Source: an uncultured bacterium
Lineage (GTDB): Bacteria; Cyanobacteriota; Vampirovibrionia; Gastranaerophilales; Gastranaerophilaceae
Direction of reading: 5' to 3'
Length of the DNA: 64,000 nt
Assembly: GCA_949282195.1 (NCBI GenBank)
Contig: CASDOW010000003.1
Span: 1 to 64,000 of the forward strand
The position numbers and the translations under genes were made by a program. The notes under the pieces are model-generated. The model saw only the letters and a program-made list of their open reading frames with translations, searched no databases and was not told the DNA's origin. Positions 1 to 54,068 of this stretch are shown piece by piece; within the stretch, counting starts at the first letter, position 1, and every line of letters starts with the position of its first letter.

Positions 1-1
1 C

Positions 2-238
2 GCACAAGATAATCCTGTACATGCTATACAAAAATTACTTGTGCATAATGTACAGTTTTCACCATACGCAGAACACTCTGTCGTAATATCAGAAACTGAA
101 CCTCCGCCGCCTAAAACAGAGTTAGAAAACTTTTTAGTAATTAACGGCGTAAAAGCAGCTGTGATACAAGAGATTACAATTAGACTTATCAAAAGTTCAA
201 CAAGCGAGAAACCTTTTTTCATGTTTAATATTCCATAG
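2..238 (+). CDS. C-terminal fragment of an unknown protein, cut by the window edge
   Basis: The frame is open from base 2 to the TAG at 236-238, giving about 78 residues. A GTG at 41 could be read as a start, but the frame continues upstream without a stop, so this is more likely the end of a longer gene. The visible part has a short acidic, proline-rich stretch (EPPPPKTE) followed by a segment alternating hydrophobic and polar residues. I recognise no family. The roughly 150 bases after it are very AT-rich and hold no gene. Confidence 0.5.
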   Translation, partial: AQDNPVHAIQKLLVHNVQFSPYAEHSVVISETEPPPPKTELENFLVINGVKAAVIQEITIRLIKSSTSEKPFFMFNIP

Positions 239-392
239 TTTATAATGTATAGTAATATATTTTTATTAAAAATATATTGTACTCTATTAATAATATAATA
301 TAATACATTAAATATCAAGAAAAAATATATATCATTATACTATTATTTTTTACTTTCTTATATTGCAAAATTAATAATATAAGGAGTGTATA

Positions 393-722
393 ATGAATGA
401 TTTAAAGAAACTTTTAGGCAGCAGAATAAAAAAAATCAGAAAAGCAAGAAATTTAACCCAAGAGCAATTGGCAGAATTCGTTAATATCGGTACGCCCAAC
501 ATAAGCTATATTGAAAACGGCAAATTTGCTCCTTCAATGGATACTTTGCAGAAAATTGCTTTAGCGCTAAAGGTTGAACCTTATGAACTATATAAATTTG
601 ATGATTATAAAACGCCTGAACAAATGAAAGAAGAATTGTTTAGTGCTTTTAATGACAATGAAGACATGTTAAAAATTTTTTATGAAATATTTTTAGCTTT
701 AAGATTTACGCTAAATAAATAG
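393..722 (+). CDS. XRE-family helix-turn-helix regulator
   Basis: A 109-residue protein with an N-terminal Cro/C1-type helix-turn-helix at about residues 9-63: SRIKKIRKARNLTQEQLAEF, then the recognition helix (VNIGTPNISYIENGK) and the usual tail (PSMDTLQKIALALKVEPYEL). This family binds DNA as dimers. The C-terminal 40 residues form a short acidic helical tail, perhaps for dimerisation. A good ribosome-binding site (AAGGAG, about 381-386) sets the ATG. The gene ends one base before the convergent cysK stop, so the two 3' ends abut. Its target is unknown; no clear operator palindrome is visible in the AT-rich upstream region. Confidence 0.85.
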   Translation: MNDLKKLLGSRIKKIRKARNLTQEQLAEFVNIGTPNISYIENGKFAPSMDTLQKIALALKVEPYELYKFDDYKTPEQMKEELFSAFNDNEDMLKIFYEIFLALRFTLNK

Positions 723-49963: not shown

Positions 49964-50992
49964 ATGTATTTTAGAATTATAGACGCAAATTTAAATAGAG
50001 CCACTGAAGGATTAAGAAATGTTGAAGAGTACACAAGATTTATTTTAAATAATAAAGCTATTTCAACCCAATTGAAAAATTTGCGCCATGAAATTACAAT
50101 GTTTTTTGAAAAGGATTATAATAAACTTGTAAACTCAAGAGATACAAAAAACGACATCGGAATAAACATCCAAAACATAACTAAAAATAGCAATAATCAA
50201 AATGTCCTTAGAGCGAATATCAAAAGAACACAACAAGCATTAAGAGTTTTAAATGAATACGGCTCACTTGACGATTATTACAGATATAAAATGTATGAAA
50301 TAGAAAAAGAAATCATGGATTTAATTAACACAGAAAAAAAGACAAATATTAAAAATGCGCTTTTGAATAATAAAAATATTTATCTCATTACTTCTCAAAA
50401 CGGATTTGAAGATAATAACGCATTTATTGATAGAATTGCACAAATTTTAAACTCAGGCGTTAAGTTAATTCAATATCGAGAAAAAAATAAATCAGCAAAA
50501 GAGATAATTTCAATTGCTTCTAAATTGCGCCAGCTTTGTTCTATGTATGACGCTCTTTTAATCATTAATGACAGAGTAGATATTGCAAAAATTGTGGACG
50601 CAGACGGGGTACACCTAGGGCAAGACGATATCGACATCAATTTAGCGAGAAAAATAATAGGCGAAGATAAAATTATCGGAATTTCAACACACAAACCTGA
50701 TGACGCAATTATAGCGCAAGATATGGGTGCAGATTATATTGGAGTTGGACCTGTTTTTAAAACGCCCACAAAACCAAGCACAATTCCTGTTGGGCTTGAA
50801 TATGTCAAATGGGTAAGCCAAAATATCAATATTCCTTTTTATGCAATAGGTTCAATTGATGAAAACAATATTAAGCAAGTCATAGACGCAGGTGCTACAA
50901 AAATTGCAGCAATTCGCTCTTTAATGAATTCAAATGATATCAATAACACAATTTCAATTTTTAATGAGGCTTTAAATCGTGGCAGTAATTAA
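49964..50992 (+). CDS. thiE: Thiamine-phosphate synthase with N-terminal ThiD2-like domain
   Basis: A 342-residue protein in two parts. Residues about 1-125 (FRIIDANLNRATEGLRNVEE; NIKRTQQALRVLNEYGSL) match the extra domain of cyanobacterial ThiE, which is related to the ThiD2 HMP-P kinase family. From about 130 comes ThiE, joining HMP-PP and thiazole phosphate: LIQYREKNKSAKEI, INDRVDIAKIVDADGVHLGQ, and GADYIGVGPVFKTPTKPS. The fusion may both phosphorylate and couple HMP-P. The short upstream gap holds a TATAAT (49928-49933) but no TPP riboswitch. It overlaps the NUDIX gene by 14 bases. Confidence 0.93.
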   Translation: MYFRIIDANLNRATEGLRNVEEYTRFILNNKAISTQLKNLRHEITMFFEKDYNKLVNSRDTKNDIGINIQNITKNSNNQNVLRANIKRTQQALRVLNEYGSLDDYYRYKMYEIEKEIMDLINTEKKTNIKNALLNNKNIYLITSQNGFEDNNAFIDRIAQILNSGVKLIQYREKNKSAKEIISIASKLRQLCSMYDALLIINDRVDIAKIVDADGVHLGQDDIDINLARKIIGEDKIIGISTHKPDDAIIAQDMGADYIGVGPVFKTPTKPSTIPVGLEYVKWVSQNINIPFYAIGSIDENNIKQVIDAGATKIAAIRSLMNSNDINNTISIFNEALNRGSN

Positions 50993-51563
50993 TTCAACTA
51001 AATTTTTAGATTTTAAATCTACAATTTCCCCTTCAGGGCAAGATTGGTACTATGTAAAAAGGACAAATGACAAGCCAAATCATGATAGTGCAGTTGCAAT
51101 AACAACGCTTGTAAAAATAAATGGCGAATATAATTTTCTTTTTATCAAGACAAATAGACCGCCAATTTTATCGGAAAATAAAGCAAAATACTGCCTTGAA
51201 TCTCCTGCGGGACTGATTGCTGATATAGATAAGGATGAAACTTTATCAGATTGCATTAAAAAAGAACTTTTAGAAGAAACAGGTCTTGTTGCAGATGAAA
51301 TATATATCGAACTTAAAAATTCATCTACAAGCGCTGGTTTATCAAGCGAAACTTTAACTTATGTTACTGCAATTTGCAATTCATATAATATCATTCAAAA
51401 GCCTGTTTCTGACGGCGGAATAATATTAGAAAGATTTTTTATTCCGATAAATTCAATTAACAGATATTTAACAACGATTAATCAAAGCGAAATATCCGTG
51501 GCTGCCGCACTTGTTTGCGGAGTTTATTATGCATTATTGAGGGTTAATTCTCTCCAAAAATAA
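50979..51563 (+). CDS. NUDIX hydrolase (ADP-ribose pyrophosphatase-like)
   Basis: A 194-residue hydrolase of nucleoside diphosphate derivatives. The Nudix box is ESPAGLIADIDKDETLSDCI then KKELLEETGLVADE, with K where the consensus has R; the metal-binding EExG core is intact. TSAGLSSETLTYVTAIC downstream resembles the ADP-ribose pyrophosphatase subgroup. It starts with GTG inside the thiE 3' end and ends overlapping the convergent XRE gene by 20 bases. Thi-adjacent NUDIX enzymes sometimes clean up thiamine intermediates; that role here is only suggested by position. Confidence 0.88.
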   Translation: MAVINSTKFLDFKSTISPSGQDWYYVKRTNDKPNHDSAVAITTLVKINGEYNFLFIKTNRPPILSENKAKYCLESPAGLIADIDKDETLSDCIKKELLEETGLVADEIYIELKNSSTSAGLSSETLTYVTAICNSYNIIQKPVSDGGIILERFFIPINSINRYLTTINQSEISVAAALVCGVYYALLRVNSLQK

Positions 51564-51768
51564 GCAATTTTTCTATATTTACATTTAAAAATTTTGATAA
51601 TTCATAAATCTTAGCTAAAGACATGTTTGCCTTACCGCGCTCAATATTTGCTATATAATTTTGTGATACATTCATAATTTCGGCAAGTTGTTCTTGCGTT
51701 AAGTCTTTCTTAATGCGCTCAATTTTAACATTTTTGCCGAATTTTTTTAATAAAATTTCTTTATCCAT
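51544..51768 (-). CDS. Small XRE-family repressor
   Basis: A 74-residue protein that is essentially one helix-turn-helix: VKIERIKKDLTQEQLAEIMN, recognition helix QNYIANIERGKANMSLAKIY, then ELSKFLNVNIEKLL. Such small proteins act as dimers on palindromes. It is divergently transcribed from the large prepilin-like gene, and the 89 bases between hold dense ACTTATAA-type inverted repeats, probably its operators. That suggests control of itself and of the prepilin-like gene. Confidence 0.85.
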   Translation of the reverse strand: MDKEILLKKFGKNVKIERIKKDLTQEQLAEIMNVSQNYIANIERGKANMSLAKIYELSKFLNVNIEKLLIFGEN

Positions 51769-51769
51769 A

Positions 51770-51848
51770 TTTATAAGTATATAAATATTGACTTATAAAT
51801 TTAAGAGTGTTATAAGTTATAATATATAACTTATAAATTATAACTTAT
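51770..51848. promoter_or_regulatory. Operator array of ACTTATAA palindromes with promoter
   Basis: Two perfect inverted repeats lie in this divergent region: ATTTATAAGT (51770-51779) with ACTTATAAAT (51791-51800), and TTATAAGTTATA (51810-51821) with TATAACTTATAA (51825-51836). A further partial copy (ATAACTTATT) is near 51839-51848. The plus-strand promoter TTGACT - 17 bases - TATAAG (51788-51816) runs through them. This is what a cooperatively bound repressor site looks like; the XRE protein is the obvious candidate binder. Confidence 0.7.
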
Positions 51849-51857
51849 TGGGGAATT

Positions 51858-54068
51858 ATGAAACACAAAAATTTTTCATGCCAAAAATTTGGCTTTTCTA
51901 TGGTGGAATTAATGATATCACTTATTGCGATTAGTTGTATCACGGCTGCTTTTACGCCGTTGATTACTAAAAAGTTTGCTACAAACATCGGCTTTGGCGG
52001 CGGCGGAGGAACTACTCCTTCAATTAGTTCTGATTGTAGTTCAAGATATTCATCTGATTGTTTATTATGTACATCAAGCGAATGTTTGAGTTGTTCTAAA
52101 ACGTGTCCAGAAGGTCAATGTCAAGATTCAACAAATTGTTCTTGTAAGGATTGTCCTGAAAGTGAATATCCTAATTGTATTAAATTTACAAATACAGCTT
52201 GTATACAATGTAAGAATGGTTATAGGTTAGTTGATAGTACTTGTATAGAGTGTCCTAACGGAAAATATTCGGATAACGGAAAAGAATGTAAGTATTGTGA
52301 AATAGGTTATTGGCCTAATGATGATAAAACAGCTTGTGTGGAATGTCCTAAGGGGTATATTTGTAATCAAGATACACAGGTAAAATGTAGCGGTACAACA
52401 ACACCAAAAATTGAAGAAAACCTTGGAGGTATTTTAGGTAAATCTCATATTTGCGCTCCATGTCCAGCAGGGTCTTATTGCGTAAATGGTATTGAAACAA
52501 AATGCCCTGAAGGAACATATTCAGAAGGTAATAAATCACAATGTTCAACATGTCCAGATAATGAACATCCAAATGAAGATCAAAGTGCTTGCACAAGTTG
52601 CCCGACAGGTTATTATTGTTCAGGCGGTCAACAAGTATCATGTAGCGAAAAATGGAGAAATTGTGCTGAATGTGATTCAACGGGCTGTACTAAATGTAAG
52701 GAAAATTTTAATTTTTCAAATGGTCAATGTGAAAGCTTATCTCCTGTTACAATGAAGGTCGGAAATCTTTATGTAACAAAATATAATATGGGCGATAGAG
52801 ATGAGCTTCCTATTCCATCAACTATTACTTTATTAAATTATAACGAAAAATGTCCTACAAATGGAAGATGCTGCTGGCAGGGGCAAACTGCAAATGGTAG
52901 CTATTGTGATGCTGAAAATGGTGGATATAGCGGTTGTAAAAGAACGGTTTGCAATTGGGACGCAGCAAGAGAAGTTTGTGCCAGACTTGATTTAGACGGA
53001 TTTAACTGGAGGTTACCCGCATATTCTGAAATGAGCAGTTGGTATTCATATTCTGCTCTTATGTCTGCAAACGGGTTACAGTTGTGTAATGGTTACGATG
53101 GAAGTTCTAAAAATTGGTCACGTTGCTATCCACAATACAGCAACTGCGGAAATTATGTAAATTATTCTTATATAGGATCATTAGCATGTTATCCAAGTTA
53201 CTTGTGGACAAGAAACTATTATAACAGCGATAACGCATACTACTACTATTTAAGTGGTTCAAATGGTTATTGGAGTTATGCATCAACATACAAAAGATAT
53301 GCTGCTTCTGTTCGTTGTGTGGCTGAAGAATCAAATACTTGTCCTGCAGGCACATATAAAAGCAATAATGATTGTCTTGATTGTTCTAATAAATACCCAA
53401 ACTGCAGTCTTTGTGATGATCAATTGTGTCATTTATGTCAAACTGGATATGAATTCCATAGAGGAACAGGTAAATGTGTTAAATCACTAGAAAATGCTCT
53501 TCCTGTAGATAATTTTTATGTAACAAAATATAACATGGGTGATAATGGTCTACCAATACCTTCAACTGTTACAATACTTCCAATTAACGGTACTTGTACA
53601 TCAATTAGATGTTGTTGGCAGGGTCAAACTGCAAATGGTAGCTATTGTGACGCATTTTATAATGGGTATAGCGGATGTAATAGAACAGTGTGCAATTTTG
53701 AAGCAGCAAAAGAAATATGTAATCAATACACAGGTGGTAATAAAACTTGGAGACTGCCTAAATACTCCGAAATGAGCAGTTGGTATCAAACGTATTCATC
53801 TAATTATGCGGATATATTTGGATTGCAATTATGCAATGGCTACGATGAAAAAAGTTATAATTGGCCCAGGTGCTATCCCAAATACGGTTCTTGCAAAGGA
53901 ACCTACTCAGATGCGTGTTACTCCAGTTATATATGGACACAAAATACATCTAATATTAATAGCTCATACTATTACTATTTGAGCGGATCTAACGGATATT
54001 GGAATTATGCAATCACTTACAATCTTGAAGCTTTTTCTGTTCGCTGTATAACCGATAGAGTTGATTAG
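51858..54068 (+). CDS. Prepilin-anchored Cys-rich protein with two FISUMP/lectin-like domains
   Basis: A 736-residue surface protein. It begins with a prepilin signal: KFG then FSMVELMISLIAISCITAAF, cut after G12, E17 at +5. A Gly-rich stretch leads to a Cys-rich stalk (about 55-295) with repeats like CPEGTYSEGNKSQCSTCP, resembling furin/EGF-like or GCC2_GCC3 modules. Two similar ~185-residue domains follow (about 301-490 and 550-733), each with YVTKYNMGD, CCWQGQTANGSYCD, WRLPxYSEMSSWY, YYYYLSGSNGYW and SVRC. They look like the FISUMP/DUF1566 C-type-lectin-like fold. A Cys-rich linker joins them. Adhesion is likely; the ligand is unknown. Confidence 0.82.
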   Translation: MKHKNFSCQKFGFSMVELMISLIAISCITAAFTPLITKKFATNIGFGGGGGTTPSISSDCSSRYSSDCLLCTSSECLSCSKTCPEGQCQDSTNCSCKDCPESEYPNCIKFTNTACIQCKNGYRLVDSTCIECPNGKYSDNGKECKYCEIGYWPNDDKTACVECPKGYICNQDTQVKCSGTTTPKIEENLGGILGKSHICAPCPAGSYCVNGIETKCPEGTYSEGNKSQCSTCPDNEHPNEDQSACTSCPTGYYCSGGQQVSCSEKWRNCAECDSTGCTKCKENFNFSNGQCESLSPVTMKVGNLYVTKYNMGDRDELPIPSTITLLNYNEKCPTNGRCCWQGQTANGSYCDAENGGYSGCKRTVCNWDAAREVCARLDLDGFNWRLPAYSEMSSWYSYSALMSANGLQLCNGYDGSSKNWSRCYPQYSNCGNYVNYSYIGSLACYPSYLWTRNYYNSDNAYYYYLSGSNGYWSYASTYKRYAASVRCVAEESNTCPAGTYKSNNDCLDCSNKYPNCSLCDDQLCHLCQTGYEFHRGTGKCVKSLENALPVDNFYVTKYNMGDNGLPIPSTVTILPINGTCTSIRCCWQGQTANGSYCDAFYNGYSGCNRTVCNFEAAKEICNQYTGGNKTWRLPKYSEMSSWYQTYSSNYADIFGLQLCNGYDEKSYNWPRCYPKYGSCKGTYSDACYSSYIWTQNTSNINSSYYYYLSGSNGYWNYAITYNLEAFSVRCITDRVD
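52875..52909 (+). repeat. Direct repeat, copy 1 (lectin-like domain 1)
   Basis: 35 bases matching 53616-53650 at 34 of 35 positions, encoding WQGQTANGSYCD. Identity at silent sites is higher than elsewhere in the two domains, so a recent duplication or gene conversion is likely. Confidence 0.75.
53616..53650 (+). repeat. Direct repeat, copy 2 (lectin-like domain 2)
   Basis: Second copy of the 35-base repeat at 52875-52909; the one mismatch is G/T. A second short match, GAAATGAGCAGTTGGTAT, is shared by the domains near 53030 and 53770. Confidence 0.75.

Follow-up and report, generated by a model that had tools for sequence, protein, structure and literature searches.

The gene at positions 51858-54068 (+) of the window, the 64,000 nucleotides analysed of contig CASDOW010000003.1 from an uncultured bacterium of the Gastranaerophilaceae, encodes a surface protein of 736 aa, and probably belongs to a genus-wide repertoire of anchored, lectin-tipped and individually regulated adhesins with exchanged coding parts. 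Each protein would be anchored by a prepilin-type signal helix, lifted on a Cys-rich stalk, and tipped with at least one Lcl_C/C-type-lectin-like head. Nearly every gene resides at a fixed chromosomal locus, flanked by its own divergent helix-turn-helix (HTH) regulator. Regulator, operator and leader remain with the locus; from the anchor codons on, homologous recombination would exchange or homogenise the coding sequence between loci of one genome and, at times, across species. The near-identical anchor sequence presumably serves as one recombination arm, and recombination enzymes are likewise presumed. In sister species, a diversity-generating retroelement (DGR) additionally mutates heads of the family kind at template adenines. 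The proteins may be exported by the type IV pilus route, and the likely purpose of the arrangement would be a changing set of individually regulated tips, with which gut surfaces or adjacent cells could be bound through their glycans or through different ligands.

The open reading frame (ORF) was confirmed, and the parts of the protein follow in the order leader (12 residues, ending in Gly), signal-anchor helix, Gly linker, stalk, head 1, short Cys-rich stalk, head 2. The locus is made of the following features.

51544-51768, minus strand: XRE/HTH_3 regulator gene, 74 aa, divergent to the surface-protein gene (HTH_3 E 1.5e-15; orthologues at the same locus in species G017, G021 and G010)
51769-51857, no strand: putative shared divergent promoter/operator region, with a near-perfect palindrome, TTATAAGTTATAATATATAACTTATAA, at 51810-51836 (12+12-bp arms) and a TRF array at 51810-51848
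51858-54068, plus strand: whole surface-protein gene (ORF list and translation)
51858-51893, plus strand: leader of the prepilin type (residues 1-12), expected to be cleaved after G12; its sequence is locus-specific, and follows the locus, not the species
51894-51977, plus strand: signal-anchor helix, residues 13-40, the seam from locus-specific to species-homogenised sequence (nearest-neighbour switch within mature-protein codons 1-22)
52035-52736, plus strand: Cys-rich stalk, residues 60-293, 36 Cys (sequence; in the full-length model it resembles modules of Cys-rich receptors and mastigonemes)
52746-53330, plus strand: head 1, Lcl_C/C-type-lectin-like, residues ~297-491 (Pfam, structure model and fold comparison)
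53331-53495, plus strand: second, short Cys-rich stalk, 8 Cys (sequence)
53496-54059, plus strand: head 2, Lcl_C/C-type-lectin-like, residues ~547-734 (best Pfam stretch 587-731; in alignment A2 it shares 63% identity with head 1)

The window is contig C3, from base 1, of a 2.1 Mb draft genome in 73 contigs (G000). This genome holds 14 N-termini of the family, sorted by the residues following the helix into seven of the FATN type, which include the target gene, and seven of the FSNS type. The original prediction, made from the window only, had joined a prepilin signal, a Cys-rich stalk and two heads in one ORF; the reading stands, and the same layout recurs in the 14 copies counted. Contigs often end in a family copy, and 40-55 identical bases are common to several such ends, which is the way repeats break an assembly. 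The family was found in all 23 same-genus genomes searched, and is marginal in other families of the order (2/15 genomes, E about 6e-4 to 7e-4). The Cys-rich stalk, thought at first to be unusual on a pseudopilin, is a standard part of the family within the genus. The closest named relative, a metagenome-assembled genome labelled Candidatus Gastranaerophilales, is 87-88% identical at the target locus.

Changes of the coding part relative to the locus were analyzed mainly in a trio of species, G000, G017 and G021; E-values and assignments are weaker for more distant species. Regulators have an identity of 0.91 at the same locus between species, and of 0.31 between loci within species. Upstream DNA follows the locus as regulators do, and the pattern reverses from the anchor codons onward. 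Nearest neighbours upstream of the ORF belong to the same locus in a fraction of 0.84; in codons 11-22 they belong to the same species in 0.86, and to the same locus in 0.04 (the same-species range inside the anchor codons is 0.86-0.89). The leading label on each side of the seam has a permutation p <0.001, and the flip from locus to species takes no more than some 30-60 nt of the anchor codons. Because regulators and upstream DNA are orthologous by locus, while the signal flips to species inside the anchor, the coding sequences behave like cassettes that undergo exchange or homogenisation, whereas the loci are fixed and have regulators of their own.

At the target locus (A-locus) the G017 protein is 87% identical, the G021 protein 30%. 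The 51769-51857 region is nearly invariant in G017, G021 and G010, even though the latter two species have a different ORF behind it. The background synonymous difference between G000 and G017, measured on three neighbouring A-locus genes (LepA, a Nudix gene, and the XRE gene adjoining the target gene), is 0.55-0.57. Values are mosaic along the target gene (0.14-0.88). In the F-locus protein they stay mostly at 0.00-0.10 across ~330 codons, and a single segment reaches 0.48; head regions can be near-identical between species (synonymous difference near 0). In terms of sequence history, the low values would point to recent transfer between species, the high ones to divergent segments having been imported. 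Behind one and the same regulator, two species have lepA, and the third, G021, has a SulP transporter gene in its place (regions concerned: L074, G021, downstream of the ORF; L055, G000:C16, 1499-3157). This single case suggests a rearrangement through family copies, in which the 3' flank was apparently exchanged too.

A divergent HTH gene lies beside 13 of the 14 N-termini of the genome, and includes XRE types of 74-126 aa and two repressors bearing S24 domains. None of nine ordinary pilin-like genes of the same genome has such a neighbour, two HTH flags in this control set (243-aa pilin-like protein) having been discounted as false positives of tiny-database E-values. Chance pairing is negligible, because just 33 HTH_3 genes score above cut-off in the genome: with an assumed total of some 2000 genes P is ~1e-22, and the comparison with the nine controls gives a Fisher p of 1.2e-5. 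In seven species, the present one and six sister species, an HTH neighbour marks 67/77 N-termini and a MerR gene occupies the same position at one more (68/77), though some assignments, such as L110, are weak. The neighbouring HTH protein most likely acts on the surface gene, as a repressor or as a switch, by binding to the palindromic region that the two genes share. The dedicated repressor of the original prediction is retained as a regulator conserved locus by locus and facing a palindromic, operator-like site; its repressing action is presumed. Control of the SOS type through the S24 repressors was considered and rejected: the LexA/CI-type Ser-Lys dyad is not intact in the two S24 neighbours, since by eye the catalytic Ser position is altered (GDTM in L055, YDM in L056), with the Lys retained.

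Heads were assigned by sequence and by fold. Lcl_C (PF07603) exceeds the Pfam gathering cut-off in the target protein (41.8 vs 34.9 bits, two stretches), and the FISUMP model TIGR02145 fails the NCBIfam cut-off (25.8 vs 41.65 bits); of the two FISUMP/DUF1566-like domains first proposed, the two heads stand, as Lcl_C domains, and the FISUMP label does not. The head profile found no match among PDB sequences, and a fold comparison was therefore used. An AlphaFold2 model built on 82 aligned heads has a predicted local distance difference test score (pLDDT) of 92.4 and a predicted template modelling score (pTM) of 0.90. Its nearest structure in VIA-align is the C-terminal domain of Legionella Lcl (PDB 8q4e; Z 12.2, root-mean-square deviation 2.8 over 107 residues), followed by Bdellovibrio Bd2740 (Z 12.1), and then by animal C-type lectins; the DGR proteins TvpA (Z 9.9) and Mtd (Z 9.2) rank lower. 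A comparison with viral structures gave no match at E 0.001. The model is a confident C-type-lectin fold, as expected for the lectin-like heads foreseen earlier, rather than an unrelated one, and by profile and predicted fold the target protein is a member of Lcl_C. By analogy, the heads may bind glycans.

The N-terminus reads as a class III signal, MKHKNFSCQKFG|FSMVELMISLI, in which position -1 is G and position +5 is E. The Pfam profile N_methyl falls below threshold in the target protein (14.2 vs cut-off 21.2), and is above cut-off in all 13 other copies of the genome. In Pfam the stalk weakly resembles TNFR/ELAPOR1-like and NCD3G modules, and no collagen-like Gly-X-Y repeats were found in its sequence. 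The full-length model is weaker than that of the head (pLDDT 69.3), and its best structural matches are Cys-rich proteins, algal mastigonemes and Elapor1, with CaSR/mGlu5 and TNF receptors lower down. The stalk, described at first as EGF/furin-like, is Cys-rich as stated, and according to the model is better termed TNFR-like or GPCR-Cys-rich-like, with no claim of ancestry. Type IV pilus ATPases (PF00437) and one prepilin peptidase (PF01478) are encoded in the genome, with profile matches above cut-off. Pilus display, binding to glycans of host or prey and a link to predation, as proposed originally, are conjectural, and so is one-at-a-time expression; display has behind it a short signal-anchor, and no modelled pilin domain. 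The protein is a candidate member of the true pilins, no pilin domain having been seen.

Reverse transcriptases (RTs), not all of the DGR kind, were found in 12/28 same-genus genomes. In G017 a bAvd gene, an RT (RVT_1) and a template repeat adjoin a head of the FSNS kind, and 24/26 template/target mismatches fall at template adenines. In G005 the figure is 19/20, and the target ORF itself bears a prepilin signal. The DGRs of these two sister species target heads of the family kind, with mutations almost confined to template adenines. In five species the variability of heads is concentrated in columns aligned with AAY codons of a DGR template, and in nine related heads of G014 the ratio of nonsynonymous to synonymous substitutions (dN/dS) is 0.81 in the C-terminal half vs 0.27 in the N-terminal half. 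Evidence from G019 is just partly clean. A template/target pair in G010 (L131) was rejected as a clean DGR, since in the presumed template 12/16 mismatches fall at T and 1 falls at A. Two other arrangements were observed. In a phage-like DGR, the RT and its tail-protein target are separated by about four template-like repeats in tandem (L136, G016:C1, 3874-4417 and 4561-4680); elsewhere, a DGR RT is followed by a tandem pair of template-like copies that share 88% identity over 381 bp (L134, G039:C12, 2319-3040, minus strand).

Could head variation be mainly the work of DGRs, in the present genome too, the RT having been lost in assembly alone? DGRs do lie beside heads in sister species, and contig C32 stops ~140 bp past the aldolase gene which flanks the G017 DGR, hence near the syntenic site. 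FSNS heads of the genome differ from the G017 template in an A-biased manner (23/38, 24/43, 30/47), and variable head columns coincide with AAY codons of the template. The assembly, however, has no RT, and FATN heads, target gene included, show many synonymous framework differences and length changes, which are not DGR products; C-terminal halves of A-locus heads differ between G000 and G017 by synonymous differences of 0.54-0.88 plus indels. The alternative is accordingly judged improbable, and the sequences do not support the target gene as a DGR target. Slightly less improbable, yet still unlikely, is an ordinary family of paralogous adhesins, expanded within the lineage, in which purifying selection maintains the shared anchor, regulators are conserved owing to the age of the loci, and no special exchange occurs. 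The stalk and head framework is indeed under purifying selection (dN/dS 0.01-0.11 in most A-locus segments). Protein selection nonetheless leaves unexplained the synonymous homogenisation within species and a seam of tens of bases, the near-zero synonymous difference of heads between species, and the unrelated proteins found behind the same regulator.

HTH genes might also be selfish regulators of antitoxin-like or prophage-like origin, which do not control the adjoining surface genes: some resemble HipB/RstR-type regulators, others CI-like S24 repressors. We consider this very improbable, as they are placed divergently, mostly within 70-400 bp of the ORF, in seven species, and are conserved locus by locus; the operator-like palindrome of the A-locus is kept while the ORF changes, and no toxin partner was seen in the flanks read. 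A repertoire of exchanged, individually regulated adhesins hence remains the preferred explanation. Several observations weigh against it: the copy at C9:55066 has no HTH neighbour; with a single draft genome per species, exchange is deduced from comparison, rather than observed between strains; the RT is missing from the assembly, and A-locus heads lack the DGR pattern; and no pilin globular domain was modelled, residues 1-54 having pLDDT <50 and the stalk starting from ~residue 60. A variation in two layers, with fixed loci and dedicated repressors fed by swapping after the anchor, plus a DGR hypermutating the tips of part of the family, is conceivable, though we hold it with less than even confidence.

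Additional copies deserve description. One, of the FSNS type (L051) and not mentioned in the original prediction, lies at the start of the window.

1-318, minus strand: second family copy, with the same family N-terminus, cut by the contig start
393-719, plus strand: XRE/HTH_3 regulator divergent to the second copy (HTH_3 E 5.2e-17)

In L066 (G000:C23, ~415-531, minus strand) the family copy lacks ~29 bases following FSNSVL, with the frame shifted, as in a pseudogene, an off state or an assembly error. Two family N-termini occur in tandem in L128, L129 and L130 (G008), in the latter two behind one divergent HTH gene. A ~161-bp tandem repeat is found downstream of the FSNS-type head in L055 (G000:C16, ~700-1520), and similar DNA is found behind heads on C27 and C18. 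Outside the family, the window encodes at 49964-50992 (+) a thiamine-phosphate synthase with a ThiD2-family domain at the N-terminus.

A single window could not reveal the 14-member family, the exchange between loci and species, or DGR targeting in sister species. Little has been published on how Gastranaerophilales, uncultured non-photosynthetic cyanobacterial relatives living in animal guts, contact their surroundings. If true, an individually regulated and exchangeable lectin-tipped family, DGR-linked in sister species, would give a direct handle on binding and variation, and an example of a conserved signal-anchor sequence used as seam for cassette exchange while regulators stay in place. 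The arrangement looks like an undescribed way of keeping a changing adhesin set, as had been surmised; the literature searched gave no paper describing it. Among titles and abstracts on Gastranaerophilales with pilin, adhesin or reverse transcriptase, none describes such a system, and no paper joining DGRs with Melainabacteria was found in a search that many subscription papers lay outside.

In its working, the system may resemble a repertoire of modular, pilin-type adhesins whose cassettes are exchanged. In the modular type IV pilins PilB and PilC of Streptococcus sanguinis, an adhesive or lectin module is added to a prepilin signal (PMC8179133, PMC9934059), and the target protein joins the same elements. 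It differs from them in that the stalk follows the anchor with no pilin domain seen in between, and in having a long Cys-rich stalk, two heads, and numerous paralogues with a separate regulator for each. Legionella Lcl, a peripheral surface protein with a collagen-like stalk, binds sulphated glycosaminoglycans (PMC11162425; PDB 8q4e); its head is akin to those described here by Pfam family and closest fold, whereas the Cys-rich stalk and the signal-anchor set the target protein apart. DGRs with C-type-lectin targets, such as those of Mtd and TvpA, are surveyed in PMC8144416, whose text does not mention pilins. The fold class is the same, and a complete avd-RT-template repeat set with A-specific mismatches lies beside family-type heads in sister species; unlike DGR targets, the target gene has no template of its own, and its heads vary by synonymous and length changes. 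MAT fibres of Bdellovibrio are also a repertoire with varied tips, one of which, Bd2740, has a C-type lectin fold, and are made of beta-prism trimers devoid of a prepilin anchor (PMC10769870). The likeness lies in the variety of tips, and in the fold shared with one of them. To our knowledge, MAT genes have neither a dedicated regulator for each gene nor a DGR. In the pilE/pilS system of Neisseria, a conserved prepilin N-terminus is followed by recombined downstream parts, and silent cassettes feed one expression site. The first trait is shared by the family described here. Silent cassettes were rejected as the sole source of variation, since nearly all N-termini are at loci with their own regulator; the arrangement is therefore not a copy of the pilE/pilS scheme and, in place of silent cassettes feeding one site, features numerous loci that are all complete and have a divergent promoter and a regulator to themselves.
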